Shown here: positions 4,623 to 20,215 of the stretch, one piece after another | Layout: every line of letters starts with the position of its first letter | How positions within the stretch are numbered: position 1 is the stretch's first letter | DNA from: Lentisphaerota bacterium | GTDB lineage: Bacteria; Verrucomicrobiota; Kiritimatiellia; UBA8416; JAUUYL01 | Reading direction: 5' to 3' | Assembly: GCA_030590485.1 (NCBI GenBank) | Contig: JAUUYL010000017.1 | Coordinates: forward strand, 1-38,731 | DNA: 38,731 nt | Made by a program: the position numbers and the translations under genes | Notes under the pieces: generated by a model | The model's database searches: none | What the model was told of the DNA's origin: nothing | The model's input: only the letters and a program-made list of their open reading frames with translations

Positions 4623-5501
4623 TTGAGAACACTACGATATATTCTGGAATATGTGTTGTTGCGAATTGCTTTGGCAATAGTGGATGTTATGCCGCTGTCT
4701 GTCGCGGAAGGTTTTGCAAGGTTTCTTGCGGATATTTATTGCGAATTGAACGTAAAGAGACGTCAAGTTGCTATTGACAACATCAAGCGTAGTGGTATCG
4801 CGGAAGACGATGACGAGACCAGGCGGATTGCCCGTGACTCTTTTCGCCATTTTGCAGTGCTGATCATTGAGTCGATTAAATCAGACCGATTTTTCGACAA
4901 AGAGAACTGGCGTGATAAGGTCGAGATGGATATTCCGGAAGAGACCATGGAGCTGTTGAAGAAACCTGGTCAGGGAATCTTGCTTGTGTCCGGGCATTTG
5001 GGCAACTGGGAAGTCGCGGCGCAGTTGTTGTCGTATCTCAAGCCGGTTATGGCCATTACTCGTGACATGAATAATCCTTACAGCAACAATTTGATTTTGA
5101 AGCGTAAATCCCGCGAGCGATTGACTCTTACTCCGAAGCACAGTGCGGATGGCGGGAGATTTCTTAATGTTTTAAGAAACGGTGAAGTGTTGGCGCTTTT
5201 GAACGACCAATATGCAAGAGATCGAGGTATGAAGGTTGATTTCTTCGGTTCTCCGGCGGAGACACATACGGCGGTGGCGATGCTGCACTTTATCACAAAA
5301 GCTCCGATATGTTTCGGGTATTGCGTCAGGACAGGGAGCATGTCATTCAAGTTTAAGGCGACGAAGCCGATGGTGTTTAAGCCGACAGGGGACAGGAATG
5401 CTGATACGCGCGCAGTTCTTGAATCGTTGAACAGGGAGCTTGAGGCGGCAATAAGGGAATATCCTGAACAGTATCTGTGGGCACACAGGAGATGGAAATG
5501 A
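4623..5501 (+). CDS. LpxL/HtrB-like lysophospholipid or lipid A acyltransferase
   Basis: This 292-residue protein belongs to the LpxL/LpxM/HtrB acyltransferase superfamily. The HX4(D/E) catalytic motif appears as His125-Glu130 in SGHLGNWEVA, and an N-terminal hydrophobic anchor spans about residues 7-25. These enzymes transfer an acyl chain from acyl-ACP to a glycolipid at the inner membrane. The start is a TTG at 4623; no ATG occurs upstream in frame, and the next in-frame ATG would remove the anchor. It lies 15 bases after the ACP gene, which suits an ACP-dependent acyl transfer. The final acceptor may be lipid A or another lipid. Confidence 0.82.
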   Translation: MRTLRYILEYVLLRIALAIVDVMPLSVAEGFARFLADIYCELNVKRRQVAIDNIKRSGIAEDDDETRRIARDSFRHFAVLIIESIKSDRFFDKENWRDKVEMDIPEETMELLKKPGQGILLVSGHLGNWEVAAQLLSYLKPVMAITRDMNNPYSNNLILKRKSRERLTLTPKHSADGGRFLNVLRNGEVLALLNDQYARDRGMKVDFFGSPAETHTAVAMLHFITKAPICFGYCVRTGSMSFKFKATKPMVFKPTGDRNADTRAVLESLNRELEAAIREYPEQYLWAHRRWK

Positions 5502-5516
5502 GGGAGTTTTAATGAT

Positions 5517-5621
5517 GAATATCGAATGTCGAATAATGAATATCGAAGGTACATGTGTTTTTACTTATAGGTACAGTTCTTCCCTTCGAAATTCGAAATT
5601 CGGAGTTCGATATTCGATATT
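5517..5621. repeat. AATATCGAAT-family repeat forming a long imperfect hairpin
   Basis: The left arm (5517-5549) is built of ATCGAAT/GTCGAAT units and ends ATATCGAAGG. The right arm (5583-5621) starts CCTTCGAAATTCGAAATT and runs to ATTCGATATT. The arms are near reverse complements around a loop of about 33 bases. The element fills the spacer between the acyltransferase and the reductase genes and would form a strong RNA structure ahead of the reductase start. It also creates a spurious N-terminal extension of the reductase reading frame. Confidence 0.8.
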
Positions 5622-5641
5622 GGGGTGGAGCGGGGAATGTT

Positions 5642-6382
5642 ATGAATGGATTTAAGGATAAGAAGATATTGGTGACTGGGTCGACTCGGGGGATAGGGTT
5701 TGCTATAGCTGAGATATTGGCGGAGCAGGGTGCTGTTGTCGGGATTCATGGGCGAGATGAAGGGCGGACTGCGGAAGTTGCCGGGACGTTGACGGCTAAG
5801 GGGTTTTCCGTGTTTCCTGTTGCGGCTGATCTCGGTAATCCTGATGAGGCTGTTGGTCTGATTAAGCGTTTTGTTAAGCAGGCAGGATCTTTGGATGGTC
5901 TTGTGAATAACGCGGGCGGCGGTAAGGCTGTGGCTTTCAGGGGGATGAAGCTTGAAGATTGGCGTAACACATTCAGTGCGAACCTGGAAGCTGCCATGCT
6001 TGCGTCACGTGAGGCTTATGTGTTGATGCGTAAGAGCAAGCAAGGCTGTATTGTTAATGTCGCATCTATTGCGGCGCATGGACCAGGCAAGTGGATGGGT
6101 GCCGATTATGCGGCCAGCAAGGCGGGACTGGTAAGTTTGACAAAGACATTAGCCTTTGAAGCCGCCAGACTGGGCATACGTGTGAATGCGGTATCGCCAG
6201 GTATGGTTGCCACAGATATGACTGCCTCGCTTTCTGAGGAGATGAAGCAGGGATTGGGTATTCCTTTGGGTCGTTTAGCGAAGCCGGAGGAAGTGGCTTC
6301 TGTTGTCTGTTTTTTACTTTCTGACCAGTCCAGCTTCATCACAGGCCAGGTACTGCATGTCAACGGCGGCCTCTGGATGTGA
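5642..6382 (+). CDS. fabG: SDR-family 3-oxoacyl-ACP reductase (FabG-like)
   Basis: A short-chain dehydrogenase of 246 residues that reduces a 3-oxoacyl group using NADPH or NADH. It has the Rossmann motif TGSTRGIG (12-19), NNAG (89-92) and the catalytic Ser142, Tyr156 and Lys160 (YAASK). The end, GQVLHVNGGLWM, is typical of FabG. The open frame extends upstream to 5555, but that part is encoded by the hairpin repeat. I chose the ATG at 5642, where a GGAG/GGGG stretch lies just upstream and the protein begins in normal SDR register. The clustered ketosynthase and ACP support an acyl-ACP substrate; other SDR substrates cannot be excluded. Confidence 0.82.
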   Translation: MNGFKDKKILVTGSTRGIGFAIAEILAEQGAVVGIHGRDEGRTAEVAGTLTAKGFSVFPVAADLGNPDEAVGLIKRFVKQAGSLDGLVNNAGGGKAVAFRGMKLEDWRNTFSANLEAAMLASREAYVLMRKSKQGCIVNVASIAAHGPGKWMGADYAASKAGLVSLTKTLAFEAARLGIRVNAVSPGMVATDMTASLSEEMKQGLGIPLGRLAKPEEVASVVCFLLSDQSSFITGQVLHVNGGLWM

Positions 6383-6441
6383 TAATATAGACTGTGGACT
6401 GTGGGGCGTGACCACGAACCATTGAGATCTATTGCCTTCTC

Positions 6442-7539
6442 CTAAACCATATCGCCAAGGATACGGCTGCCTTCGTCGAGGAAGATTCCCTGCAGGTTCA
6501 TTCTCAGAGATTCCGCGTTTGTTGCGAAACGCATTCCGTCAGCTTCGGTTATTAATCCGGCCTTAATATGGTTGTAGACTGACTGGTTGAATGTCTGCAT
6601 TCCGTCGTCACCGCCTGTTTCGATAGCTGCGCCCAGGACATCCAGTTGGTTTTTCTGGATGAGCTTACGTACGGTGGAAGTGTTTATCATGATTTCCACG
6701 ACGGGAATAGCACCGCCCTGAGTGTCTGGAACCAGGCGCTGGCAAATGATTGCATAAAGGTTTCCTGCGATACCAACACGTATCTGATCCTGCTCTGCGG
6801 CAGGGAAAACATCCAGCATTCTGGGGATTGCCTGGTCGGCTGTTCCTGCATGCAGTGTGGAGAGCACGAGGTGACCGGTTTCTGCGGCAAGTAGAGCTGT
6901 TTGGATACTGGTTGAATCACGCATTTCACCGATAAGTATAACATCGGGATCCTGCCTCATCAGGTGCTTTAGCGCCTTGTCGAATGACAGGGTGTCCAGG
7001 CCGATCTCGCGTTGTGAGATAACAGATTGGTCGTCTTTAAAAGTGTATTCGATTGGATCCTCCACAGTGATTATCCTGCGCCGTTGTGTCCTGTTGATTT
7101 CTCCGATGATAGCGGCCAATGTGGTTGACTTACCGCTTCCGGTGGTTCCAGCCATCAGGATGATACCGCGTTGCGCCTGGGCAAGATCAGTCAGCTGTTC
7201 CGGTACACGTAATTCCTCAAAGGTAGGAATCGCGGTTTTTACATGACGCATGACAATTGTCGGTTCGCCCTGGCAATTAAAAATGTTAACACGGAATCGG
7301 CCGCAACCTTCTTCTTCCAGCGAGAAATCAGCTTCGTGTTCATTTTGATAAACTTCGGCAACATGCGGTGGGATTATGTCTTTAATGATATTTGCGAGAT
7401 CTTCTGATGTAGCTTTTTCAAAGCCGCTGTCTGTCAGGTCGCCGTGAACGCGGAAGATGGGTTGTTGGTCGTGGGTGATGTGGATATCAGATGCTTCCAT
7501 TTTGACGGCTTTAGCAAGGATAGGTTGAAGAACTGACAT
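6442..7539 (-). CDS. pilT: Type IV pilus retraction ATPase, PilT/PilU family
   Basis: A 365-residue hexameric secretion ATPase that drives pilus retraction at the inner membrane. Walker A is GTTGSGKS (131-138), the Walker B region is DVILIGEMRD (199-208), and the Asp box and His box (STLHAGTADQAIPRMLDVFP) are present. The length fits PilT. A good ribosome site (GGAGG) precedes the ATG. It lies 14 bases after the LptF/G-type gene and is probably co-transcribed with it. No other pilus genes are in the window, so assignment to PilT rather than PilU or a twitching-independent paralogue rests on the protein alone. Confidence 0.88.
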   Translation of the reverse strand: MSVLQPILAKAVKMEASDIHITHDQQPIFRVHGDLTDSGFEKATSEDLANIIKDIIPPHVAEVYQNEHEADFSLEEEGCGRFRVNIFNCQGEPTIVMRHVKTAIPTFEELRVPEQLTDLAQAQRGIILMAGTTGSGKSTTLAAIIGEINRTQRRRIITVEDPIEYTFKDDQSVISQREIGLDTLSFDKALKHLMRQDPDVILIGEMRDSTSIQTALLAAETGHLVLSTLHAGTADQAIPRMLDVFPAAEQDQIRVGIAGNLYAIICQRLVPDTQGGAIPVVEIMINTSTVRKLIQKNQLDVLGAAIETGGDDGMQTFNQSVYNHIKAGLITEADGMRFATNAESLRMNLQGIFLDEGSRILGDMV

Positions 7540-7553
7540 GTTTCCTCCTGAAG

Positions 7554-8669
7554 TTAGATTATTTTTCTCGTCATAACAATTCCTGCGATGAAGAACAGTA
7601 TATTAGATAACCATGCTCCCAGCCAAGGTGATAATACCTGTTTCTTGCCGAGAATCATTCCAAACTGAATTGTGGCGTAGAAGAGAAAAAGGTATGCGAT
7701 AGCCATGAATATAGTTGTTAAGACACTTTGTCGGCTGCTTTTGGCACCAACGGGAATGGCGAAAAGAGTGGCGATAATGCATGCCCATGGCATGGCAAGT
7801 CTGGCGTGAAAGTCTACTTTCAGCCTGGTTTGTTCGGATGGAGGCAGAAATTTGTGAGTATTGAGAAAACGGAGCAGGTCAGCAGATGAGAGGTGTTCCG
7901 GGCTTCTGGCTGAATTGGCGAAGTCTGACGGCTCTTCGGTTAAGTCGGGTATTTCCATAATGGTGTTTTCGCCTGGTATAGGGGCGAAGGGCTTGCCGAC
8001 AGGGTTATCGTTGTCGTCGAACTTTTGTATGGTTACATTGTAGAACCACCATTTTCCGTCAAGCCACTCGGCTTTATCAGCTGTTAATTTTTCTACACGT
8101 GTGCCGTCGGCTTTTTCTCTAGTAAGGACGACACCTGTAAGTTGTTCGGGGTGACTTTCGCTGAACGCGTCAATCCGCCATTGCCGGTGGTCATCGGTGT
8201 TTGAGTAGGGGTAGTCAGTGAGGCTTCTGTTCATGTTCTCCTCGAATGCTGCAGCGTCATATCTGCTGTCGGAGAGTTTTCTGAGCCACATACTGGTGTA
8301 GGGCGTGACGTTTTCTTTTAGTATAGCCATGGTGATGCTGAAGCATATTCCGATGACAATGAAAGGTTTCATGATACTCAGAATGCTGATTCCTGTGGCA
8401 CGCATGGCGATAAGTTCGTTGTGTCTGGCTAATTGCCACAATGTGTAGAGGGTGGCGAGCATCAGGCATGCAGGCACGATAAACTCCAGTGTCATAAGGA
8501 GTTTAAAGAGGTATAGCTGTAATATCAGTTGTTTTGGGGTGTCGGCTGCCAAATACCTGGAAAGGCGTCCGAAAAGATCAGAAATGGTGAAAAGAGACAT
8601 GAAAGTCATTAGGCAGTATCCAATGGATTTCATATATTCTCGATAAAGGTATTTACTGATGATTCTCAT
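7554..8669 (-). CDS. LptF/LptG-family permease (LPS export)
   Basis: The 371-residue protein has three hydrophobic helices near the N-terminus (about 13-32, 60-80, 97-117), a large soluble middle region, and three helices at the C-terminus (about 298-368). This is the YjgP/YjgQ (LptF/LptG) layout. In the Lpt machine these permeases extract lipopolysaccharide from the inner membrane and pass it to LptC. The N-terminal segment MRIISKYLYREYMKS is characteristic of the family. The partner LptF/G, LptB and LptC are not in the window, so I leave F versus G open. It is divergent from gap. Confidence 0.8.
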   Translation of the reverse strand: MRIISKYLYREYMKSIGYCLMTFMSLFTISDLFGRLSRYLAADTPKQLILQLYLFKLLMTLEFIVPACLMLATLYTLWQLARHNELIAMRATGISILSIMKPFIVIGICFSITMAILKENVTPYTSMWLRKLSDSRYDAAAFEENMNRSLTDYPYSNTDDHRQWRIDAFSESHPEQLTGVVLTREKADGTRVEKLTADKAEWLDGKWWFYNVTIQKFDDNDNPVGKPFAPIPGENTIMEIPDLTEEPSDFANSARSPEHLSSADLLRFLNTHKFLPPSEQTRLKVDFHARLAMPWACIIATLFAIPVGAKSSRQSVLTTIFMAIAYLFLFYATIQFGMILGKKQVLSPWLGAWLSNILFFIAGIVMTRKII

Positions 8670-8758
8670 ATGGAGTACTTATAGCATGATAATATGGCAA
8701 TATGCAAACGCAGATAAAGGCCGATGGCTGTGAAAAGATCAAAAATGCTAATTCATTA

Positions 8759-8786
8759 TTGACTATTACGCTCCAGCTACTATACC
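8759..8786 (+). promoter_or_regulatory. Candidate sigma-70 promoter of gap
   Basis: TTGACT (8759-8764) and TATACC (8781-8786) are separated by 16 bases and lie about 60 bases ahead of the gap start codon. The leader would include a strong AAGGAG ribosome site at 8834-8839. Inferred by consensus match only. Confidence 0.45.
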
Positions 8787-8809
8787 GTACACGTTCTTTA
8801 TACAAGTAG

Positions 8810-9853
<1,044 letters not shown>

Positions 9854-9855
9854 TT

Positions 9856-9894
9856 ATCAGGCCGCTGCTCAATAAACATTGAGTGGCGGCTGAT
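9856..9894 (+). promoter_or_regulatory. gap-pgk intercistronic hairpin
   Basis: In the 58-base gap-pgk spacer, CTCAAT pairs with ATTGAG around an AAAC loop; after a TG/TG internal mismatch, GCCGC pairs with GCGGC, and the stem extends a few pairs beyond a bulged G. No T-tract follows and pgk has its own GGAGAG ribosome site at 9898-9903. A role in RNA processing or 3'-end protection of the gap message is possible. Confidence 0.5.
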
Positions 9895-9911
9895 TATGGA
9901 GAGATGGTTTC

Positions 9912-11135
9912 ATGGAAAAAAAAACTGTTCACGATCTTGATTTGAACGGTAAGCGCGTGCTTATGCGTGTTGATTTCAACGTGCCGCTGGACGGCGTCAC
10001 GGTCAGTGATGATACGCGTATAAGAGCGGCGATGCCCACTATTCAATATGTGCTTGGACAGGGCGCATCGCTTGTCCTGATGAGCCATTGCGGAAGGCCG
10101 AAGGGTGAAACGAAGCCTGAATTCAGTCTCAAACCGGCTGCAGACCGTTTGTCTGAGCTCTTGGGTAAAGATGTGGCGTTTGCTCCTGATTGCGTAGGTG
10201 ATGAGGTTAAGGCTATGGCCGAAGTGCTCACGCCTGGTGATGTGCTTCTGCTTGAGAACCTTCGGTTTCATCCTGAAGAAGAAGGCAAGAATGTTGAGCT
10301 GGACGCGCAGAAAGAGTTTGCGCGTCAGTTGTCTGAGCTTGGTGATGTTTATGTTGACGATGCATTTGGAACGGCTCATCGTGCGCATGCATCCATGGCT
10401 GTCGTGACTGAGTTCTTTGAGGAATGTGCAGCAGGTTTGCTTCTTGAGAAAGAGATAGAGTATCTTGGCAACGCTGTTGCCAGTCCCGAAAAGCCGTTTG
10501 TCGCCATTATTGGCGGTGCAAAGATAAGTGGTAAAATAGACGTTCTTATGTCTCTTGCTGACAAGGTTGATTCGATTATTGTTGGTGGCGGTATGGTTTA
10601 TACTTTTTATAAGGCCATGGGGACGCCGATTGGCAATTCGCTGCTGGAAGAAGACAAGGTCGATCTGGCCAGAGAGACGATGGCGAAGCTGGAGGAGAAG
10701 GGTGTTAAGCTTCTTCTTCCCACGGATCACGTATTAGCAATGCTTCCAGAAGGCATTTCGCTTCCCGGTGGGTTCACGTCAGATATACCTGTGAAAACAT
10801 CAGTAGATATTGATGATGGTTGGACGGCTCTTGATATCGGTCCTGAATCCACTGCCGCATTTTGTGAGGAAGTCAGAAAAGCGAAAACTGTTGTTTGGAA
10901 TGGTCCGATGGGTTTTTTCGAGATTCCTGCTTTTGCCGAAGGTACAATGTCAGTTGTTAAGGCGCTTGCTGAGACGGATTGTGTAAGCGTCATCGGCGGA
11001 GGTGATAGTGTGAGTGCTGTGAACAAGAGTGGGTTGGCTGATCAGATGACCCATATCAGTACTGGCGGCGGGGCTAGCCTTGAATTTCTTGAGGGTAAGG
11101 AATTGCCCGGTATTGTAGCGTTGAGTGATAAATAG
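9912..11135 (+). CDS. pgk: Phosphoglycerate kinase
   Basis: A monomeric 407-residue kinase that makes ATP and 3-phosphoglycerate from 1,3-bisphosphoglycerate. It begins with the substrate-binding signature RVDFNVPLD (19-27) and includes [18 protein letters not shown], the hinge motif [23 protein letters not shown] and the nucleotide-binding end [10 protein letters not shown]...[18 protein letters not shown]. The length is normal. It lies 58 bases after gap, separated by an intercistronic hairpin, and is followed by a second hairpin. A long open frame on the opposite strand (9894-10730) is a shadow. Confidence 0.97.
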
Positions 11136-11140
11136 AGACC

Positions 11141-11162
11141 ACCCGAAAAGGTGTTTTCGGGT
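11141..11162 (+). terminator. Hairpin after pgk without a T-tract
   Basis: ACCCGAAAA (11141-11149) pairs perfectly with TTTTCGGGT (11154-11162) around GGTG, 5 bases after the pgk stop. The lack of a following T-run suggests partial termination or 3'-end stabilisation. A GGTTAATGGTTAA repeat follows directly. Confidence 0.5.
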
Positions 11163-11262
11163 AGAATGGTTAATGGTTAAGAAGAGCGAATCTATACTGG
11201 ATTATTGTGCATGCAAGCATGATGTTTGTTTTAAATTGTAGTATATCAGGTGAGTAGGAGAT

Positions 11263-12024
11263 ATGAAGAAACTGAGAAAAAAGATAATTGCTGGTAATTG
11301 GAAGATGAACAAGACGACTGCTGATGCCGCTTCGCTGGCAGAGGGTCTTAAGTTAGAGTTGGGTGATTGCCTGGATGTGGATATTGTGTTGTGCCCTCCT
11401 TTTACAGCACTTAGTGCCGTGAGCGGTATTATTGATGACTGTCATATGAAGCTTGGCGCGCAGGATATGCATTGGGAATCTGAAGGTGCTTATACTGGCG
11501 AAATTTCCTCCGGCATGTTGAGAGATCTGTATTGTAATTATGTAATACTTGGGCATAGCGAACGGCGCGCGTATTTTGGCGAAACAAACGAAACGGTGAA
11601 CAAGAAAGTCAAAGCGGCCATTGCTGCAACACTGATACCGATTGTTTGTGTGGGCGAGACTTTGGAGCAACGTGAATCGGGTACCACAGAAGCCGTTGTG
11701 CGTGATCAAGTCGAGAACAGCCTTGCTGGGCTTGATGATGATCTTGCTAAGATTGTTGTTGCTTACGAGCCAGTGTGGGCTATTGGAACTGGTCTGACTG
11801 CTACGCCGGATCAGGCTCAAGATGTACATGCGTTCATCCGGAAGCTTTTAGCCGAGATTGGTGGTTCTGATATTGCAGATGGTGTAAGAATTCAGTATGG
11901 TGGCAGCATGAAGCCGGCTAATGCGGCTGAACTGCTTGAAAAGCAGGATATTGACGGAGGATTGATTGGGGGCGCGGCTCTCGATGTTAGATCCTTTGCC
12001 GAAATAGTCAAAGCAGCAATGTAG
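11263..12024 (+). CDS. tpiA: Triosephosphate isomerase
   Basis: A 253-residue TIM-barrel enzyme interconverting dihydroxyacetone phosphate and glyceraldehyde 3-phosphate. The catalytic residues are visible: Lys14 in AGNWKMNKT, His98 in ILGHSERR and Glu169 in VVAYEPVWAIGTG. The phosphate-gripper region IQYGGSMKPANAAEL and GGLIGGAAL are intact. The ribosome site is GTAGGAG just ahead of the ATG. A 127-base spacer with a hairpin and a short repeat separates it from pgk, so it may have its own promoter. secG starts 10 bases after it. Confidence 0.97.
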   Translation: MKKLRKKIIAGNWKMNKTTADAASLAEGLKLELGDCLDVDIVLCPPFTALSAVSGIIDDCHMKLGAQDMHWESEGAYTGEISSGMLRDLYCNYVILGHSERRAYFGETNETVNKKVKAAIAATLIPIVCVGETLEQRESGTTEAVVRDQVENSLAGLDDDLAKIVVAYEPVWAIGTGLTATPDQAQDVHAFIRKLLAEIGGSDIADGVRIQYGGSMKPANAAELLEKQDIDGGLIGGAALDVRSFAEIVKAAM

Positions 12025-12034
12025 AGGTGTTAAA

Positions 12035-12436
12035 ATGTCAGGTATAGCGATATTAAAAGGGTTTTTGATGGTTGTAGAGGTGTTGAGCGCATTTCTTCTC
12101 ATAATTATTATTCTTATGCAGAAATCCAAGAGCCAGGGTATGGGCCTGGCATTTGGCGGTGCTATGGGTGAGTCCTTGTTTGGCGCGCAGATGGGTAATG
12201 TGCTTACCAAGGCAACTGTAGTATTGGCTATTGTATTTATGGTTAATACGACAATTTTGGCTATGCTTGGTCCAATAGGCGGCGAGCCCAAGACTATTGC
12301 CGATACGATATCCGACGTTCCTGGTTCGGCTCCGATGGATCAGCCGATGCAGTCTCAGGTGCCGATGTCTCCACCTGTTGAGGGTACGACACCAGCAATT
12401 CCGACGGTTCCGATAGTGCCTGCACCTGTGGAATAA
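12035..12436 (+). CDS. secG: Preprotein translocase subunit SecG
   Basis: A 133-residue membrane protein with two transmembrane helices (about 9-29 and 63-81) flanking the conserved cytoplasmic loop LMQKSKSQGMGLAFGGAMGESLFG. SecG assists SecYE-mediated protein export. The tail after the second helix (residues 85-133) is rich in Pro, Met and Val and is longer than in E. coli, as in many non-proteobacterial SecG proteins. The tpiA-secG pairing is widely conserved in bacteria. Its TAA overlaps the next start by one base (TAATG). Confidence 0.92.
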   Translation: MSGIAILKGFLMVVEVLSAFLLIIIILMQKSKSQGMGLAFGGAMGESLFGAQMGNVLTKATVVLAIVFMVNTTILAMLGPIGGEPKTIADTISDVPGSAPMDQPMQSQVPMSPPVEGTTPAIPTVPIVPAPVE

Positions 12437-14316
12437 TGAAAAGAAATAATAATGCTTTTGCGAGCCCCACTACCGTGGGGCTTTTTTCTCTTTTGAGCAT
12501 GGTGTTATTTTGTCTTTCTGGCTGCGGGCACAACGATGGCTCGGTGATGGCTGAAAACGAGATGGTGTATTCTGGCGTAACCACCCGTATACGAGGGTTT
12601 GATCCCGTTAAGGCTGGTGATGTCTCATCCGCCATGGCTATTAGCAAAATATACGAAGGACTCGTTCAGTATTCCTATCTCGAAAGACCATACAAGGTTA
12701 TCCCGAATCTTGCCGAATCAATGCCCGACATATCCGAGGATGGTCTTGTTTACACGTTTAAGATTCGTAATGGTTTGTTTTTTCAGGATGACCCCTGTTT
12801 TGGGAAATCCAATGGGAAGGGACGAGAGCTTACGGCTGAGGACTTCGTCTATTCGATCAAGCGTGTGGCGGATGTCAAGAATCAGTCGACAGGTTATTGG
12901 GTTTATAACAATCGTATAGTTGGTTTGGATGACTTTCGCGATAAATCAAAAGATCCTGAGTCTACTGATTATGATTCAATTGTTGAAGGGCTGACAGCGT
13001 TGGATCGATATACTCTTCAGATCAGGCTTGTTGCGCCTTACCCTCAATTGCTCTGGGTGTTGACAATGCATTATGGCTACGCGGTGCCTCGTGAAGCAGT
13101 GAGTCATTATGGCGGAGAGTTCCTGAATAATCCAGTTGGAACGGGACCATTTGTACTCGAAGACTGGGTGAGAAATTACTGTGTTAAGTTTGTGAGAAAT
13201 CCTAAATGGAGTGAATCGGGAAGAATAGAGCTCTATCCTTCGGTGGGTGAGGAAAAGGACAGAGCGAGTGGACTTCTTGATGATGCGGGGAAAGCTGTTC
13301 CGATTATTGACAGGATAGTCCAATACGTTATTTCCGATCCCTCAACGCAATGGTTGAAATTTGTTACTGGCGGTTTGGAGTCGTCGGCGATTTCGAGAGA
13401 CAACTGGGATGCTGTTATTTCCCCTGGAGGCGGATTAACTGAGAGTCTGAAGAAGAGGGGGATAAGGCTCAACAAACAGCCTTCGCTGAATGTCTTTTAT
13501 GTGGGTTTTAATATGAATGATCCGGTTGTAGGTATGTCTGAGAATAAGGCCAAGGATCTGGGGCACAAAAAACTCAGGCAAGCACTGACATGTGCGTTTA
13601 ACAGTGAAACGTGGATTAAATTCTGGAATGGTCGGATAATTCGGGCGAAAGGACCAATCCCTCCCGGTGTAGCGGGTTTTAAAGATGAACCAGCGCAGTA
13701 TCCCTATGATTTGGATAAGGCCACAAAGCTGTTGGCGGAAGCCGGGTATCCCGATGGTGTAAGTGCTGAGACCGGCAAGCGATTGAGGTTGACGGTTGAG
13801 CTTGGCAGTGCTGACCCGCAAACCAGAGAGGCAATAGACTTGATGTCTTCGTTCTTTAGAGAGATAGGAGTCTTGCTGGAGGCCAGTTATAATAATTGGC
13901 CGACTTTCCTGCAGAAGATGGAGCGTCGCCAATGTCAGCTTTACCGACTCGGCTGGATTGCAGATTATCCGGATGCAGAAAATTTCTTACAGCTTTTTTA
14001 TGGGCCGAACAGCTCGCCCGGCCCTAATCACAGTAATTATGAGAGTCCTGAGATCGATAAGTTGTACGAAATGATTCGCACAATGAATGACACACACGAA
14101 CGGACAGCAATATACAGGAAGATGGCTGACATCGTGGAGGAAGATGCTCCGTGGATATTTACGGACCACCCTATGTCTTTCGGTCTTCATCATTCCTGGG
14201 TGAAGAATTATAAGCATCATGATTTTCCGTATGGAATGACCAAATACCGTAAGCTTGATCTCGTGATGCGTGAGGAATGGCAAAGGAATTACGGAAAAAA
14301 GCATTGGCGGGAGTAG
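12436..14316 (+). CDS. Peptide ABC transporter substrate-binding lipoprotein (SBP_bac_5)
   Basis: A 626-residue extracytoplasmic solute-binding protein of the OppA/DppA family. Residues 1-30 form a lipoprotein signal ending in the lipobox LSGC (Cys30). Family motifs include YEGLVQYSY, PNLAESMPDISEDGLVYTF, LTAEDFVYSIKR, NPVGTGPF and KLRQALTCAFN. It would deliver oligopeptides or a similar ligand to the two downstream permeases. The start overlaps the secG stop by one base and has no clear ribosome site, suggesting translational coupling. An intrinsic-terminator hairpin lies within its signal-peptide codons. Later in-frame starts would lose the charged N-region. Confidence 0.87.
   Translation: MKRNNNAFASPTTVGLFSLLSMVLFCLSGCGHNDGSVMAENEMVYSGVTTRIRGFDPVKAGDVSSAMAISKIYEGLVQYSYLERPYKVIPNLAESMPDISEDGLVYTFKIRNGLFFQDDPCFGKSNGKGRELTAEDFVYSIKRVADVKNQSTGYWVYNNRIVGLDDFRDKSKDPESTDYDSIVEGLTALDRYTLQIRLVAPYPQLLWVLTMHYGYAVPREAVSHYGGEFLNNPVGTGPFVLEDWVRNYCVKFVRNPKWSESGRIELYPSVGEEKDRASGLLDDAGKAVPIIDRIVQYVISDPSTQWLKFVTGGLESSAISRDNWDAVISPGGGLTESLKKRGIRLNKQPSLNVFYVGFNMNDPVVGMSENKAKDLGHKKLRQALTCAFNSETWIKFWNGRIIRAKGPIPPGVAGFKDEPAQYPYDLDKATKLLAEAGYPDGVSAETGKRLRLTVELGSADPQTREAIDLMSSFFREIGVLLEASYNNWPTFLQKMERRQCQLYRLGWIADYPDAENFLQLFYGPNSSPGPNHSNYESPEIDKLYEMIRTMNDTHERTAIYRKMADIVEEDAPWIFTDHPMSFGLHHSWVKNYKHHDFPYGMTKYRKLDLVMREEWQRNYGKKHWRE
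12463..12487 (+). terminator. Rho-independent terminator inside the binding-protein signal sequence
   Basis: AGCCCCAC (12463-12470) pairs perfectly with GTGGGGCT (12475-12482) around a TACC loop and runs straight into TTTTT, then CTCTTTT. This is a textbook intrinsic terminator placed 27 bases into the open frame of the binding protein and 27 bases after the secG stop. It probably limits read-through from the gap-pgk-tpiA-secG operon into the transporter genes. Its codons encode residues 10-17 of the signal peptide. Confidence 0.75.
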
Positions 14317-14324
14317 AGCTTGAG

Positions 14325-15671
14325 ATGAGGCAAATGTTAAAGTATGTAATACGCAGGGTGTTGTACATGGTGCCAACGGTGTTTGGCGTCATTCTGATTA
14401 CCTTTGCCCTCTTTAATATGGCGGGTGGTGATCCGGCTCTCATGCGGCTCGGCAAGCAGGCGGCTGCCGATACCATGGAAGCGTATGATGTTCAGCGCGG
14501 ATTGAATAAGCCGCTGTTTGCGGGAATGTGGGGTAGGACTCGTGCTTATGAGGCAACAGATTTCTCAGTTAATGCTGGCAGTTGGTCAAAGTTGGAGGGC
14601 GTAGAATACGCAGGACGGGCTAAAGGTTATATAGTTCTTTCCAAAACAGGAGAATATGAGGCAGACAGGCGTTTACCGCTTAATCCGGGTGAAGATTACC
14701 AGTGGGTTGTCAAATGTCGTTTGAGTAATCAGGGGAACGCCAGGTTTCTTGTTAAAGAGGGCGACACCGAGTTGGCGTCAGTGCAAATTCCTGAATCAAG
14801 ATCGTTTAGAACTTTACGGATTCCTTTTGTGGCAGGTGCAAGCGAGGCTTCATTGCGGAGTTTGATTGTGATTAAGGCGGGATCCTTAGATGTGACGGAT
14901 ATCAAAATTCAGAGGCGGGTAAGGCATATATTCGATTCGCAGTTTGTATTCTATATAAGCCAGATTCTGCGATTCGATTTCGGAGTTTCGGATGAGACCA
15001 ATCAGAGGGTCTCAAAGATGATCAAGGATGGGATATTGCCGTCGCTCGCTTTGACGGCACCAATGTTTCTTGTGGGTCTTATTACGGCTATAGTGGTGTC
15101 CTTGATCTGCGCTTATATGAGGAATACCTTTTTGGATCGTTTCTTTGTCGTGTTCTCCATTCTGCTGATGAGTATTAATTATCTGGTGTGGATTATTCTG
15201 GGGCAGTATCTATTCGCTTATAGGCTGCACTGGTTCCCTATATGGGGTTTTGAATCGATGCGCTTTCTTGTTCTCCCCGCCATCATAGGCGTGATTAGTG
15301 GTCTTGGGTCAAACATAAGATTTTACAGAACAGTTATTCTCGATGAAATGTACTGTGATTACGTGAGAACAGCTCTTGCCAAGGGTGTGAGTAAGCCAAG
15401 TTTGCTGTTTAAGCATGTTCTTAAGAACGCCATGATTCCAATTTTAACAAGTGTTGTGATAGCGATACCGTTCCTTTATACGGGCAGTCTTTTGCTTGAA
15501 ACATTCTTTGGCATACCTGGCTTGGGGAGTATGAGTATAAACGCTATTAACAGTTCCGATTTTGATGTTATTCGTGCCGTGGTTTTTGTGGGTGCAATGA
15601 TCTATGTGGTTGCCAATCTTCTCACAGATATATGTTATGCGGCAGTTGATCCAAGGGTGAAACTGAAATGA
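14325..15671 (+). CDS. ABC transporter permease, OppB/DppB type, with inserted domain
   Basis: The 448-residue protein starts like OppB (MLKYVIRRVLYMVPTVFGV, first helix about 7-31) and ends with five more helices, including the EAA-type loop (DYVRTALAKGVSKPSLLFKHVLKNAMIPILT) and the C-terminal DPRVKLK. The normal family length is about 310. The excess is one block, residues about 66-203, placed after RGLNKPLF and before QFVFYISQILRFDFG; these flanks are adjacent in ordinary OppB. The block (GEYEADRRLPLNPGEDYQW..., FRTLRIPFVAG) looks like a beta-sandwich, carbohydrate-binding-like domain. I chose the ATG at 14325, 8 bases after the preceding stop; 14334 is also possible. Confidence 0.85.
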   Translation: MRQMLKYVIRRVLYMVPTVFGVILITFALFNMAGGDPALMRLGKQAAADTMEAYDVQRGLNKPLFAGMWGRTRAYEATDFSVNAGSWSKLEGVEYAGRAKGYIVLSKTGEYEADRRLPLNPGEDYQWVVKCRLSNQGNARFLVKEGDTELASVQIPESRSFRTLRIPFVAGASEASLRSLIVIKAGSLDVTDIKIQRRVRHIFDSQFVFYISQILRFDFGVSDETNQRVSKMIKDGILPSLALTAPMFLVGLITAIVVSLICAYMRNTFLDRFFVVFSILLMSINYLVWIILGQYLFAYRLHWFPIWGFESMRFLVLPAIIGVISGLGSNIRFYRTVILDEMYCDYVRTALAKGVSKPSLLFKHVLKNAMIPILTSVVIAIPFLYTGSLLLETFFGIPGLGSMSINAINSSDFDVIRAVVFVGAMIYVVANLLTDICYAAVDPRVKLK

Positions 15672-16648
15672 GTATTGAGGACAATAAGAAAAAGCATGGC
15701 AAGACGCTGTATGCTGATGCGTGGTCGAGTATTCGCAGAGATAAGCTGTCTATGGCGAGTCTTGTCGTGATTGTGTTTTTTATGCTGACCGCTTTGTATG
15801 GCACTTGCATTTACTGGCGCTATAACATCATCGATGCGGAGAGTCCTCAGATGCTGAAGCCTTTAAAAGTGGTGGTTGAAAAGGTTCTTATGGCCGACCG
15901 GGTGAAAGGGCAGGTTGCGCCTTATCAGAGACAGGATCTTGACAACAGGTATATGTCTCCTTCGGTATCTCATGTAATGGGTACTGATAGTCTTGGCCGG
16001 GATGTGTTTCAGAGATTGGTTCAAGGCTCCAGGATTGCATTTCAGGTTGGTGTTATCACGTCTCTTATCGCAATACCCATAGCGGTTCTACTGGGCTGTA
16101 TAGCCGGGTATTTTGGAGGATGGGTTGATGATGTGATTGTATGGTTGTATTCGACCTTCGCCTGTATGCCGACTTTGCTCTTTATAATTTCTATTTCTAT
16201 GGTTATTGGCAAGGGTTTGACGGGGGTCTACATAGGGATAGGTTTCACAACCTGGGTTCATTTATGCAGGCTTATTCGTGGTGAGGTCATGAAGAGAAAG
16301 GATCAGACCTACGTGCGGGCTGCTCAGGTATTAGGGTATAGCCATGCAAGGATTATCTTTCGACATATACTCCCGAATATCATGCACATTATAATTATTA
16401 ACTTCTCGCTCAGGTTCCCGTCTGCTATACAAACAGAAGTGATACTGAGTTTCCTGGGGATTGGAGCTCAGTCAGAACCATCTTGGGGTTTGATGATTAA
16501 CAGTGCCCGGTTCAGGTTGTGGTATGGGGTCTGGTGGGAGCTGACGTTTACCACACTGGCAATATTGGCAATTGTCCTGGCGTTCAACCTTCTTGGTGAC
16601 GCGTTAAGGGATGCGTTGGATCCTCGGTTGAGAGAGGTCGAAAGATGA
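15668..16648 (+). CDS. ABC transporter permease, OppC/DppC type
   Basis: A 326-residue partner permease. The family signature GTDSLGRDVFQRLVQGSRIAF is present, followed by the membrane helices and the EAA loop (YVRAAQVLGYSHARIIFRHILPNI). The C-terminus GDALRDALDPRLRE is typical. The first helix spans about residues 31-50. The segment between it and the GTDS motif (about 52-97) is somewhat longer than usual. It overlaps the upstream permease by ATGA and the downstream dxs by ATGA, so the three are translationally coupled. No ATPase (OppD/OppF) gene is present in the window, so the energising subunits must be encoded elsewhere. Confidence 0.9.
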   Translation: MSIEDNKKKHGKTLYADAWSSIRRDKLSMASLVVIVFFMLTALYGTCIYWRYNIIDAESPQMLKPLKVVVEKVLMADRVKGQVAPYQRQDLDNRYMSPSVSHVMGTDSLGRDVFQRLVQGSRIAFQVGVITSLIAIPIAVLLGCIAGYFGGWVDDVIVWLYSTFACMPTLLFIISISMVIGKGLTGVYIGIGFTTWVHLCRLIRGEVMKRKDQTYVRAAQVLGYSHARIIFRHILPNIMHIIIINFSLRFPSAIQTEVILSFLGIGAQSEPSWGLMINSARFRLWYGVWWELTFTTLAILAIVLAFNLLGDALRDALDPRLREVER

Positions 16649-18522
16649 GCAAGATTTTGGATAGAGTGAATGTTCCTGCTGATTTGAAGGATTTGAATGT
16701 TCATGAGATGGAAGACCTCGCGGCCGATATCAGGGAGCTGATAATCGAGACTGTCAGCAAGACAGGAGGGCATCTGGGCGCGAACCTTGGTGTCGTTGAA
16801 CTCACGATAGCACTTCTTAAGGTGTTTAGTCCTCCGGATGATAAGATTGTATGGGACGTCGGCCATCAAAGCTACGCATATAAGATTCTGACAGGCAGGA
16901 AAGACAGGTTCAGCACATTGCGTCAGTCGGGAGGTCTGTCCGGATTTCCGAAGATGGCAGAAAGTGAGTATGACGCATTTGGGGCAGGGCATGCAGGGAC
17001 AGCGCTTTCGGCCGGGATGGGTATGGCGTATTCCCGTGATATGCGGGGTGGGAATGAAGACATTGTGGTTGTTACGGGTGATGCCTCGGTCAGCTGTGGA
17101 ATATCTCTTGAGGCATTGAATAATCTGGCGTCAGCTACTAATCGTATGATTGTGATCATGAACGATAATGAGATGGCGATTTCGAAGAATGTCGGATCAA
17201 TCTCCGGTTATCTTGGACATTTGCTGGCCAACCCGCGTTATAACAGATGGAAGAAGGGTGTTGAGACCGCGGCAAAGAAAGCGCACTTGGGCTGGTTTAG
17301 ATCAACTTACTATCGCATGGAAGAATCAATCAAGAGCCTGTTTCTGAATAACGTCATTTTTGAAGAATTTGGACTCCGGTATGTTGGCCCCATTGACGGA
17401 CACAATATTCATGACTTAATTGACGCTTTGACTGTAGCCAAGGAATATGACAAGCCGATTATTCTTCATGTAGCCACTGTGAAGGGGAAGGGGTATGAGT
17501 TTGCGGAAGCCTACCCGGAGAAATGGCATGGAACAGCAGGATTTGATATCAAGACAGGCGATGCGTCTGTAGCTGTATCAGGGAAGGGTTATTCACAGGT
17601 GTTTGGAGATGTGCTGACAAACCTTGCTGCCGGGAATAAGGATATTGTAGCAATCACTGCTGCTATGACCGGCGGAACAGGATTGACCGGGTTTGCAGAA
17701 ACCCATTCTCGCCGTTTCTTTGATGTCGGCATGTCTGAAGAACATGCAGTGGTATTTGCCGCAGGTTTGGCTGCCGATGGCATGTCTCCGGTTATTGCGA
17801 TTTATTCAACATTTATTCAGAGATCGGTTGATTGCATAATTCATGATATTTGTCTGCAGAAACTGCCGGTTGTTATATGCCTCGATAGGGCTGGCATAGT
17901 AGGTGATGACGGACCGACACATCACGGAGTATTTGACATAGCGTTGTTGCGGCCGGTGCCGGGATTGATAATCATGCAGCCGAGAGATGAGGCTCAGTTT
18001 GCCAATATGATCGATACGGCAATCAAACTGAAGAAGCCGGTTGTGATTCGCTATCCACGAGGTGCAGGGCCAGGTTTGGAGGTTCCCGAGATACTAAGCG
18101 AAATCCCTGTTGGGAAAGCAGAGATAATCCGGCAGTCAGCGACTTGCGGCGACAATGGCGCGGTTGTTTTCTGGGCACTTGGAGATATGATTCCTTTGGC
18201 AGAAAAGGCCGCGGATATTCTGGAGGCAGACGGGGTGAGCTGTTCGATTGTGGATCCTCGTTTTATCAAGCCGTTTGACCGTGAGCTGCTTAAAGAGACC
18301 TCACGCGGTACAAAGGCAGTGGTGACATTGGAGAACGGGGTCATCTCGGGCGGATTCGGTTCCGGGGTCGAATCATTTCTTGCTTCTGAAGGATATGATG
18401 GAAAGGTCTTGAAATGCGGCTGGCCTGATGAATTTATTCCGCATGGTTCTGCCGATATCCTGCTGGAGAAATATGGGCTTACGGCAAAAGCTGTTGCTGA
18501 GAGAGTGAGAAATGAAACGTGA
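16645..18522 (+). CDS. dxs: 1-deoxy-D-xylulose-5-phosphate synthase
   Basis: A thiamine-diphosphate enzyme of 625 residues making 1-deoxyxylulose 5-phosphate from pyruvate and glyceraldehyde 3-phosphate, the entry step of the MEP isoprenoid pathway. Motifs include SKTGGHLGANLGVVELT, WDVGHQSYAYKILTGR, the TPP/Mg motif GDASVSCGISLEALNN (145-160), DGHNIHDL and DRAGIVGDDGPTHHGVFDIA. The length matches the family. It overlaps the permease gene by 4 bases. The last codons (AAT GAA ACG TGA) match a repeat family seen elsewhere in the window (AAACGTGA), so the extreme C-terminus may be repeat-derived. Confidence 0.95.
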   Translation: MSKILDRVNVPADLKDLNVHEMEDLAADIRELIIETVSKTGGHLGANLGVVELTIALLKVFSPPDDKIVWDVGHQSYAYKILTGRKDRFSTLRQSGGLSGFPKMAESEYDAFGAGHAGTALSAGMGMAYSRDMRGGNEDIVVVTGDASVSCGISLEALNNLASATNRMIVIMNDNEMAISKNVGSISGYLGHLLANPRYNRWKKGVETAAKKAHLGWFRSTYYRMEESIKSLFLNNVIFEEFGLRYVGPIDGHNIHDLIDALTVAKEYDKPIILHVATVKGKGYEFAEAYPEKWHGTAGFDIKTGDASVAVSGKGYSQVFGDVLTNLAAGNKDIVAITAAMTGGTGLTGFAETHSRRFFDVGMSEEHAVVFAAGLAADGMSPVIAIYSTFIQRSVDCIIHDICLQKLPVVICLDRAGIVGDDGPTHHGVFDIALLRPVPGLIIMQPRDEAQFANMIDTAIKLKKPVVIRYPRGAGPGLEVPEILSEIPVGKAEIIRQSATCGDNGAVVFWALGDMIPLAEKAADILEADGVSCSIVDPRFIKPFDRELLKETSRGTKAVVTLENGVISGGFGSGVESFLASEGYDGKVLKCGWPDEFIPHGSADILLEKYGLTAKAVAERVRNET

Positions 18523-18571
18523 TCCGGCGTCGCCTTTGGCTATGCCAAGACAAGAACGTGAAATGTGATGT
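18511..18571. repeat. AAACGTGA repeats flanking a TCCGGCGTCGCC module
   Basis: AATGAAACGTGA (18511-18522) includes the dxs stop codon. It is followed by the 13-mer TCCGGCGTCGCCT (18523-18535), which recurs identically at 37979-37991, then GCTATGCCAAGACAAG, similar to 26119-26134, then GAACGTGAAATGTGATG. The unit fills the dxs-rdgB spacer. Confidence 0.65.
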
Positions 18572-18586
18572 GGCGGAGGAGATGAA

Positions 18587-19174
18587 GTGAAGATTTTGAT
18601 AGCAACGAGAAACCAGCATAAACTCACTGAGATACGGGAAATATTCTCTGATTCGGGTTTGGAGCTTTTGACGGTGGATGATTTTTCAGGTTTGCCGGAA
18701 GTTGAAGAAGACGCGGATACTTTTGCGCTCAATGCCATAAAGAAGGCGGTGACGTTGGCTATGGTTGCAAAGATGTGGACGTTGGCGGATGATTCGGGGC
18801 TGGAGGTCGATGCGCTCGGAGGCGAACCTGGAATTTATTCTGCCAGATATGCTGGTGAACCTGTTGATTACGAGGCTAATAACCGGAAGCTGTTGAAAGA
18901 GATGGAGGGCGTCGCTGATCGTAATGCAAGGTTTCGATGTGTTATTGCGTTGTCGACACCTGAAGGTTTTTCGCAATATGTGGAAGGCGTATGCGAAGGT
19001 GTTATTGTGAACGATGAGCGCGGAGAAGATGGCTTTGGTTATGATCCGCTCTTTATGCCTGATGGATATGAAGACACTTTTGCGGAAATGGATTCCGGGC
19101 TTAAGAACAGCATATCTCATAGGGCAAACGCATTGCGTATAGCGTGGGAAAAATGGGAAAAACTTCTCAAGTAG
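18587..19174 (+). CDS. rdgB: XTP/dITP diphosphatase (RdgB/HAM1 family)
   Basis: A 195-residue nucleotide-pool sanitising enzyme that hydrolyses dITP and XTP to monophosphates, keeping deaminated purines out of DNA. It shows IATRNQHKLTEIREIF at the N-terminus, the catalytic block LADDSGLEVDALGGEPGIYSARYAG, GEDGFGYDPLFMP and SHRANAL near the end. The start is GTG at 18587 with GGAGG about 8 bases upstream. It follows dxs after a 64-base repeat-filled spacer. It ends one base before the converging lipoprotein gene. Confidence 0.93.
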   Translation: MKILIATRNQHKLTEIREIFSDSGLELLTVDDFSGLPEVEEDADTFALNAIKKAVTLAMVAKMWTLADDSGLEVDALGGEPGIYSARYAGEPVDYEANNRKLLKEMEGVADRNARFRCVIALSTPEGFSQYVEGVCEGVIVNDERGEDGFGYDPLFMPDGYEDTFAEMDSGLKNSISHRANALRIAWEKWEKLLK

Positions 19175-19175
19175 C

Positions 19176-19898
19176 CTACAGCTTTATATTTTTGCCTGTA
19201 AAAGTGAGCTGTATGAGGCTGTCGTGCAGGTCAGTTATAGCGTTAGGGTTCTTGTTGTAATTGAAGTCCCATTGCGCGGTAAAGCGAGAAGTCTTTGCTG
19301 CGTTACTCCTGAGGATCATTCCTGGAGTGTTGATTCTGACTGTTACGTCGAAACCACCAAGTAGAGGTGTCAGCTCCTCATGCTCTTGCGGCGACAGTGT
19401 TTTGTTGTTGCTGGCCTTGTCGGCTTTATCTCGCTTTAGAATGTAATCGCCAGCCTTGTTTTTTTGAAGCGATATTCTGTGGCTGGTAAAAAGATCGGTT
19501 TGTGCCATCCGGGGCAGGCTTTCGAAGTCCAGTCTGATATGCGTCTTTTTTGATGCGTTTCGTGTGTCGACGGAGATTTTTGCAATCCTTATTCCGTTTG
19601 CCTTGTATTTCTTGAAAAAAGCAATGAAGGCTTCTTTTGATGGATTGTAGAAAAGCATAATTAGAGGATCATCGGGTTTGGCGGCGGGCTTGCCTGATGC
19701 AGCCATGAGTTCATCCCTCAGTTTCATCATGGCTCTAAACTGGGTGATTGATTGTTCGGATATCGAGTACTCAAGGTCGAACGATCCTGACCCGTCTTCC
19801 TTAAGGATCAGGGTCGGTTCTGCTTGAATGCAGCCGGTAATGGCGCAGATAGCGCAGATGACGGCGATAATCAGAGTAGCTTTAAATACAGCTTTCAT
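19176..19898 (-). CDS. Putative lipoprotein of unknown function
   Basis: The 240-residue product has a clear lipoprotein signal: a hydrophobic stretch at residues 4-20 and lipobox ITGC with Cys23. The next part, EPTLILKEDGSGSFDLEYSIS, resembles the start of small lipoproteins that carry a beta-rich domain (LppM-like), with no catalytic motif. A Lys-rich middle and a final beta-rich segment follow. I do not recognise the family with confidence. Its ATG overlaps the ftsB stop by one base (TAATG), so it is coupled to ftsB and eno. It is probably anchored to a membrane facing the periplasm. Confidence 0.75.
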   Translation of the reverse strand: MKAVFKATLIIAVICAICAITGCIQAEPTLILKEDGSGSFDLEYSISEQSITQFRAMMKLRDELMAASGKPAAKPDDPLIMLFYNPSKEAFIAFFKKYKANGIRIAKISVDTRNASKKTHIRLDFESLPRMAQTDLFTSHRISLQKNKAGDYILKRDKADKASNNKTLSPQEHEELTPLLGGFDVTVRINTPGMILRSNAAKTSRFTAQWDFNYNKNPNAITDLHDSLIQLTFTGKNIKL

Positions 19899-20215
19899 TA
19901 CATTCCTGGTCTGGGTGATGATGTTTTTGCCTGTGTATTTGTGAACTTAAATACTGTTTCGTTTGGCTTTACCATGCCGGATTCCCTGGCTGTACGCTCG
20001 ACGAAGCTTGGGTCAGAGGCAAACCGCTCCTGTTTTCGTCTGAGTTCTCTGGTCTGCTCCTCGGTCTTGATGTTTTCCCGCTGGAGCGCCAAGGCTCGTG
20101 CCTGGAGCTCTCTGACGGCATCCCACCTGGGAAGGAATATGGTGACCAGCGTGATTAACGCCAGTATGCACAATAATACCCAAGCAAGTTTATAGATCTT
20201 GTTCCAATGTTTCAC
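19898..20215 (-). CDS. ftsB: FtsB/DivIC-type septum formation protein
   Basis: The 105-residue bitopic membrane protein has a short cytoplasmic start, one transmembrane helix (about 10-28), a coiled-coil segment (about 35-65, RELQARALALQRENIKTEEQ) and a C-terminal part FVERTARESGMVKPNETVFKF that matches FtsB/DivIC. FtsB works with FtsL and FtsQ at the division site. It lies 15 bases downstream of eno, a gene order seen in many bacteria. The last 15 residues are a low-complexity tail. Confidence 0.85.
   Translation of the reverse strand: MKHWNKIYKLAWVLLCILALITLVTIFLPRWDAVRELQARALALQRENIKTEEQTRELRRKQERFASDPSFVERTARESGMVKPNETVFKFTNTQAKTSSPRPGM

Follow-up and report, generated by a model that had tools for sequence, protein, structure and literature searches.

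Intrinsic terminators are usually assigned to the space between genes, and predicted intragenic ones are often dismissed. Partial internal terminators, which set the stoichiometry of operons, also usually lie between genes. The closest described systems place a terminator near translated sequence. In E. coli, the tR2 terminator is repressed by the finishing ribosome when it lies a few bp past a stop codon and recovers with distance; placed 30 bp past an AUG, a terminator keeps most of its efficiency, translation lowers termination by ~10% and the released RNA is non-stop (PMC4824070). In Streptococcus gallolyticus pil1, pilus transcription increases when ribosomes translate a long leader across a terminator (PMC3894217). 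Runaway transcription would also allow a terminator to act (PMC13323073, in which PVC is named in a figure legend).

Here we describe a terminator-shaped hairpin that lies within the signal-peptide codons of an oppA-type gene in a Lentisphaerota bacterium, is conserved among relatives, goes with the secG gene upstream and uses the same bases for RNA structure and for protein. The window, meaning the whole stretch of DNA analysed, is 38,731 nucleotides long (contig JAUUYL010000017.1; Table 1). As in an operon-end intrinsic (Rho-independent) terminator, a GC stem with a short loop and a T-tract follows the last gene of the presumed operon at a distance of about 26 nt, but here the whole stem is part of the coding sequence of the following gene, whose full-length transcripts must pass it. 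It resembles partial internal terminators in that a step-down would fall between genes of a cluster, and differs from them in being dual-coding. In the tR2 plasmid W48, too, a terminator lies within the first 100 bp of a coding region, ~30 bp past the AUG, and the terminated RNA has no stop codon; W48 is an engineered E. coli test (PMC4824070), whereas the window case is natural and is conserved with changing sequence. With leader-peptide attenuators (trp and pyrBI, cited in PMC4824070/PMC3894217, and S. gallolyticus pil1) it shares a terminator near a translated start and a possible effect of the ribosome. Unlike in those systems, there is no separate leader peptide and no stop codon ahead of the terminator, we saw no antiterminator, and what is translated is the structural protein's own signal peptide.

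Table 1. Positions of the genes and of the hairpin in the window
Feature	Position	Strand	Basis or remark
gapA, glyceraldehyde-3-phosphate dehydrogenase	8846..9853	+	ORF list, profile match
pgk, phosphoglycerate kinase	9912..11135	+	ORF list, profile match
tpiA, triosephosphate isomerase	11263..12024	+	ORF list, profile match
secG, at the end of the presumed glycolytic operon	12035..12436	+	PF03840, TIGR00810
oppA-type extracellular solute-binding protein (SBP_bac_5)	12436..14316	+	PF00496, E 2.8e-72
oppA lipoprotein signal-peptide codons through lipobox Cys30	12436..12525	+	lipobox by inspection
Hairpin	12462..12483	+	8 Watson-Crick pairs and one outer G.U, loop TACC
T-tract	12482..12487	+	six T, then CTCTTTT up to 12494
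oppB-type permease	14277..15671	+	start uncertain; overlaps oppA as called
oppC-type permease	15668..16648	+	ORF list, profile match
dxs	16645..18522	+	ATG overlaps the end of oppC

The genes gapA, pgk, tpiA, secG, oppA, oppB, oppC and dxs all lie on the plus strand, and the ATG of the 626-codon oppA frame overlaps the stop codon of secG (TAATG, with the A at 12436 common to both). The oppB-type permease (464 aa) is covered by Pfam only at residues 20-85 and 271-462; the gap of more than 100 residues between the matches is possibly an inserted extracytoplasmic domain. The oppA-oppB-oppC genes are followed immediately by dxs, and no gene for a transporter ATPase intervenes (14277-18522).

At 12463-12487 the sequence reads AGCCCCAC TACC GTGGGGCT TTTTT, with six T at 12482-12487 (from 12482 onwards, TTTTTTCTCTTTT). 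Positions 12463-12470 pair with 12475-12482, and the outer G.U joins 12462 and 12483. The preliminary description had noted an 8-bp GC-rich stem with a run of T inside oppA, just past secG, and both its coordinates and its account of the structure are correct. The stem begins 27 nt into the oppA frame and encodes SPTTVGLF, residues 10-17 of MKRNNNAFASPTTVGLFSLLSMVLFCLSGC. In isolation, the hairpin has a folding energy of -16.9 kcal/mol (z = -5.6) and none of 200 dinucleotide shuffles was as stable, while the longer segment 12380-12485 is unremarkable as a whole (z = -1.5; 15/200 shuffles as stable). A terminator consensus scan of 5000-20000 listed the hairpin, with G-C in 6 of its 9 pairs, first among 16 sites, where 12.7 were expected by chance; a minus-strand site in the same scan (11164-11139) has 11 pairs, 5 of them G-C. 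The window thus holds the structure expected of an intrinsic terminator, a stable GC-rich hairpin with a T-tract directly 3', and the hairpin is predicted to release the RNA at that tract.

We considered other identities for the element. Between 11500 and 13200 no Rfam family scored above its gathering threshold at E <= 1, and a known RNA family was rejected because the only match was sub-threshold. That match, to STnc100 at 12424-12493, spans the hairpin but probably arose by chance (23.2 bits against a cut-off of 47). A promoter was rejected as well, since promoter-like sites in 5000-20000 occur at chance level (20 against 22.2 expected). The in-frame starts past the early ATG of oppA (GTG at 12475, in the stem, TTG at 12493 and ATG at 12499) would leave no charged n-region, which makes the early start the more plausible one.

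Relatives were collected by searching for oppA in 57 and then 345 genomes, of which 186 of the 345 matched at E <= 1e-100, and also in genome contigs, where the matching records include Pontiellaceae, Kiritimatiellales, Kiritimatiellaeota, 'Lentisphaerae' and Verrucomicrobiota. To these we added another 80 stretches, working approximately from the highest score down and leaving out lower-scoring oppA matches. From 154 loci we removed 18 duplicates, 2 that lay too near a contig start and 1 without a usable oppA, which left 133 distinct oppA 5' regions; secG lies directly upstream of oppA in 95 of them, and tpiA is also present in 91 of those 95. The oppA starts among relatives were chosen by a simple first-ATG rule. 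Hairpins were called by two rules, one for a simple hairpin with a T-tract at dG <= -16 (the energy rule) and one for a strict contiguous helix; both replaced a scan allowing 75-nt spans and branched folds, which gave inflated energies and was dropped. The energy rule can miss a canonical stem, and in the window it chose a longer hairpin that encloses the canonical one.

Under the energy rule, 58 of the 95 distinct secG-oppA junctions carry a hairpin with a T-tract, as do 202/3905 same-strand control windows from the same loci, with junction stretches of up to 155 nt set against control windows of 130 nt. Among oppA homologues with no secG found upstream, a mix of distant paralogues and loci where secG may lie past the end of the stretch or contig, 2/38 have one (1/15 at identity >= 49%). 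Relaxing the threshold to dG <= -8 gives 68 junctions, 808 control windows and 10 oppA without secG (of 95, 3905 and 38). The strict rule finds 48/95 junctions, 218/3648 length-matched control windows and 2/38 oppA without secG. Most hairpins lie in the gene: 55 of the 58 energy-rule hairpins are inside the coding sequence, 2 lie across the start and 1 before it, and the 48 strict ones divide into 43 inside, 4 before and 1 across. Strict stems start 15-62 nt past the secG stop in 47/48 cases, with the remaining one at 114, and the 43 strict stems that lie within oppA end 32-74 nt past its start. These counts across junctions ignore relatedness, for which a tally by family is a rough correction: 14/24 families have at least one member with a hairpin inside the gene or across its start by either rule, and 10 do by the strict rule with the hairpin inside only. 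The junctions that fail (37/95 at dG <= -16, 47/95 by the strict rule) include some with imperfect visible stems and some with none. By both rules there is no hairpin in the same-order relatives of the window that have the junction (L002, L004, L013), nor in the distant L027. In L124 and L131, an in-frame repeat inserted between secG and oppA (like FPSPDGVVGGS...AVWSRDDLVP; twice in L131) parts the stem from the signal peptide; it resembles a small mobile or palindromic repeat.

The sequence of the stem turns over while its place is kept. Stems are unrelated between families: in f44 the arms are AGACTCCCC..GGGGAGTCTTTT, coding RLP..GSL; in f31 GAACGGCGGA..TTCCGCCGTTTTTC, coding ERR..SAVF; in f43 ATCCCCGCGC..GCGCGGGGATTTTT, coding SPRR.CAGIF; and in f38 AAAGGGTC..GGATCCTTT, coding KG..GWIL, none of them like the SPTTVGLF of the window. 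Within f44 the stem has shifted register in L102, L103 and L106, is new in L083 and has decayed in L071. With 20/22 f44 junctions compared (all but L072 and L109) and 5 of these 20 omitted for having a different stem or none in that register, 158/180 cells pair in register against 88-108 when slid, and 5 pairs, including 2 at the ends of the helix, show changes on both sides. Third-position variation, in an analysis that also omitted L090, is 0.20 and 0.11 in the two arms and 0.43-0.49 elsewhere. Taken across the class, the hairpin appears to be kept as a structure under sequence change, and is absent in L002, L004, L013 and L027. The check suggested in the preliminary description, whether the stem persists in relatives whose signal peptide differs, came out positive, with a hairpin in 58/95 junctions and both stems and residues varying between families. 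The 95-junction comparison also strongly supports the earlier suggestion that the same bases serve a terminator-shaped RNA and signal-peptide codons.

Composition accounts for part of this signal. When codons were resampled synonymously according to the usage of each locus, 16.6 hairpins were expected against 58 observed, with p <= 0.05 at 40/95 loci and p = 0.005 for the window itself. The synonymous null reaches -16 or below in at least half of the resamples at 7/95 junctions, including L115, where the hairpin sits in unshuffled spacer. Cross-family chimeras joining left and right halves reach dG <= -16 in 538/3000 (17.9%) against 58/95 (61%) of natural junctions, and dG <= -20 in 219/3000 (7.3%) against 45/95 (47%). 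When stems were picked without the T rule, in 54/95 junctions and 610/3965 control windows, at least 5 T in the next 8 nt followed 31/54 junction stems and 19/610 control stems. Codon third positions within the 9 nt past the stem are rich in T (79/96 against 27.2 expected; 17/93 against 20.3 in the next 9 nt), a count from 43 loci that were partly chosen for their T-tract and that serves as illustration only.

The hairpin is not a general property of gene starts, which we rejected from a crude strict scan of 720 kb (281 kb of this genome's contigs, the window and 400 kb of the relative G126): of 98 strong sites on both strands, 4 lie at the very start of a long frame, and the window hairpin is the only one of these 4 from this genome. 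A general property of lipoprotein starts was rejected from a second crude scan, with dG <= -16 at 0/7 other lipoprotein-like starts sampled from this genome and at 1/11 from G126. Both crude scans missed the known G126 case in the sampled stretch L184 (seen as L085); on our reading, the strict scan did so because that stem has two G.U pairs and the lipoprotein scan owing to its lipobox pattern. In these stretches the strict rule yields few strong canonical terminators, a scarcity that might reflect heavy reliance on Rho or on terminators of less regular form.

Whether the structure belongs to secG or to oppA can be asked where the two are apart. In 30 genomes where oppA is weak, missing or not behind secG, we located secG via tpiA, which is present in 28, with secG in 27 of the 28. 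A strict terminator follows secG within 150 nt in 8/27 of these genomes, and 19/27 have none. Intergenic terminators lie 14 nt past secG in L197, 23 nt in L199 and 15 nt in L201; in L217 the best score is 72 nt past secG, with another hairpin nearer by eye, and in L211 the terminator is doubtful. A dxs-like frame apparently follows secG in L211 (G002), by eye. Two of these genomes, G032 (L199) and G046 (L217), have oppA elsewhere and without the hairpin (L019 and L018). In G053, G037 and G055, secG has no strict terminator after it (L213, L207 and L210), and the oppA of G053 that has no secG upstream (L007) has its own energy-rule hairpin. An operon-end terminator should go with its upstream operon, and the hairpin is found in 58/95 junctions with secG against 2/38 oppA with no secG found. 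On balance, the structure seems to follow secG rather than oppA, as would an operon-end terminator over which oppA begins. The preliminary description had the stem ending the glycolytic operon, which gains indirect support from this linkage and from the intergenic terminators after secG in 8/27 genomes where no oppA was found there.

We think it somewhat probable that the stem-loop is the operon-end terminator of gapA-pgk-tpiA-secG, which the oppA signal peptide overprints, and that it works as a leaky step-down; from the sequence comparison we infer the termination, its efficiency, the effect of translation and the single-transcript operon. The stem-loop would close the gapA-pgk-tpiA-secG transcript, and oppA would begin ahead of it. 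The codons of the n-region, together with the earliest ones of the h-region, would then overprint the stem, and hydrophobic codons (TTT, CTT, GTT) would provide the T-tract. The stem is probably clear of the shadow of the ribosome finishing secG and would end before a new oppA ribosome is likely to reach the polymerase, and should thus work despite being coding; lying in the stretch between two ribosomes, it is expected to be a working but leaky terminator. Stop-to-terminator distances, which bear on the coupling of transcription to translation, come from small sets of 6 and 12 sites. The stop would be partial, with most transcripts ending at the stem and a fraction continuing into oppABC and probably dxs. 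As every oppA message with a full signal peptide must pass the stem, a step-down between the glycolysis genes and the transporter would follow. The claim that oppA expression depends on passing the stem is thus upheld by the geometry for transcripts initiated upstream, and passage may be by any of the routes that had been offered with it (antitermination, read-through or ribosomes closely following from secG) or by plain leakage. Re-initiation at oppA should raise readthrough if it comes soon enough for the ribosome to cover the left arm, and the E. coli 30-bp result suggests that ribosomes alone need not open the stem (PMC4824070). The genome has tmRNA and Rho matches, both above cut-offs, so non-stop fragments can be dealt with. 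Against a plain terminator, lost oppA output and non-stop mRNA should be costly.

In an alternative that we regard as possible but doubtful, the signal peptide doubles as a regulated transcriptional attenuator. Initiation at oppA, coupled to secG by the close stop and start, would decide whether the hairpin forms, and only timely oppA translation would open it; the first codons of the structural gene would be its own leader peptide, and oppABC transcription would report ribosome supply, initiation efficiency or ligand at the oppA start. The position of the stem ends, 32-74 nt past the start for the 43 strict stems within the gene, is consistent with this, as is the fact that the stem has stayed translated through sequence turnover although an intergenic placement is possible (4/48 strict hits lie before the start), and the pil1 leader offers a precedent for translation through a terminator raising transcription (PMC3894217). 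However, the start-stop overlap is not conserved, since the chosen starts, counted from the secG stop, range from -4 to more than +30; the encoded residues vary between families (by eye), so that regulatory codons of the kind found in leader peptides were not seen; one fold of 12380-12485, the last 57 nt of secG plus the stem, gave no antiterminator pairing; and in E. coli translation that began at an AUG 30 bp upstream lowered termination only by ~10% (PMC4824070).

The remaining explanations seem to us less probable still. The hairpin might act in the message rather than on RNA polymerase, slowing early translation, aiding membrane targeting of the mRNA or protecting a processed end, with the T-tract merely the h-region. 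Signal-peptide codons are T-rich, so any hairpin there would look like a terminator, and T is somewhat over-represented at third positions 5' of the stem (55/168 against 37.3 expected) and beyond 35 nt (71/312 against 56.6) as well; yet it is in the 9 nt directly 3' of the stem that the excess is concentrated, and oppA without secG, which has the same export need, mostly lacks the hairpin (2/38, or 1/15 at identity >= 49%), so we consider a role in the message improbable. It is very unlikely that this is an ordinary intergenic terminator with a mis-called start, oppA truly beginning after the stem: in the window, any start past the stem would lack a charged n-region ahead of the h-region, and different species of f44 and f31 have similar residues before or at the left arm (MRF..., MERR...). 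This holds even though the relatives' starts follow a simple first-ATG rule, the chosen start is downstream in 4/48 strict hits (L074, L115, L142, L143) and the inserted repeat parts hairpin from signal peptide in L124 and L131. We give scarcely any credence to chance, by which GC-rich n-region and T-rich h-region codons would form hairpins by themselves. Composition does contribute, since chimeras and synonymous resamples reach -16 or below in 17-18% of cases, but natural junctions do so in 61% (58/95), and the both-sided changes and quiet third positions in f44 also argue against it.

The leaky operon-end terminator that we favour is built of known parts, as the terminator, the early coding position and the attenuator have each been described, and it is their fixed combination that appears to be new. 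In the accessible literature, with subscription journals mostly outside its scope, we found no account of signal-peptide codons that contain a conserved terminator, and 'Kiritimatiellota', in that spelling of the phylum, was not found together with 'terminator'.

The comparison points to a terminator-like structure that many lineages retain within a gene start although their sequences differ, with hydrophobic codons as its T-tract. It offers a natural, phylogenetically replicated case for studying competition between transcription and translation in the first 100 nt of a gene, and a caution that terminator predictors should avoid masking coding sequence. Signal peptides may be loose enough in sequence to hold a second signal. 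If the attenuator reading were true, secG, a gene of the Sec translocon, and a gene for a secreted protein would be tied together by one RNA switch, terminated messages would become non-stop RNAs for tmRNA, and selection would be preserving a switch in coding sequence throughout a bacterial class despite the turnover of its letters.
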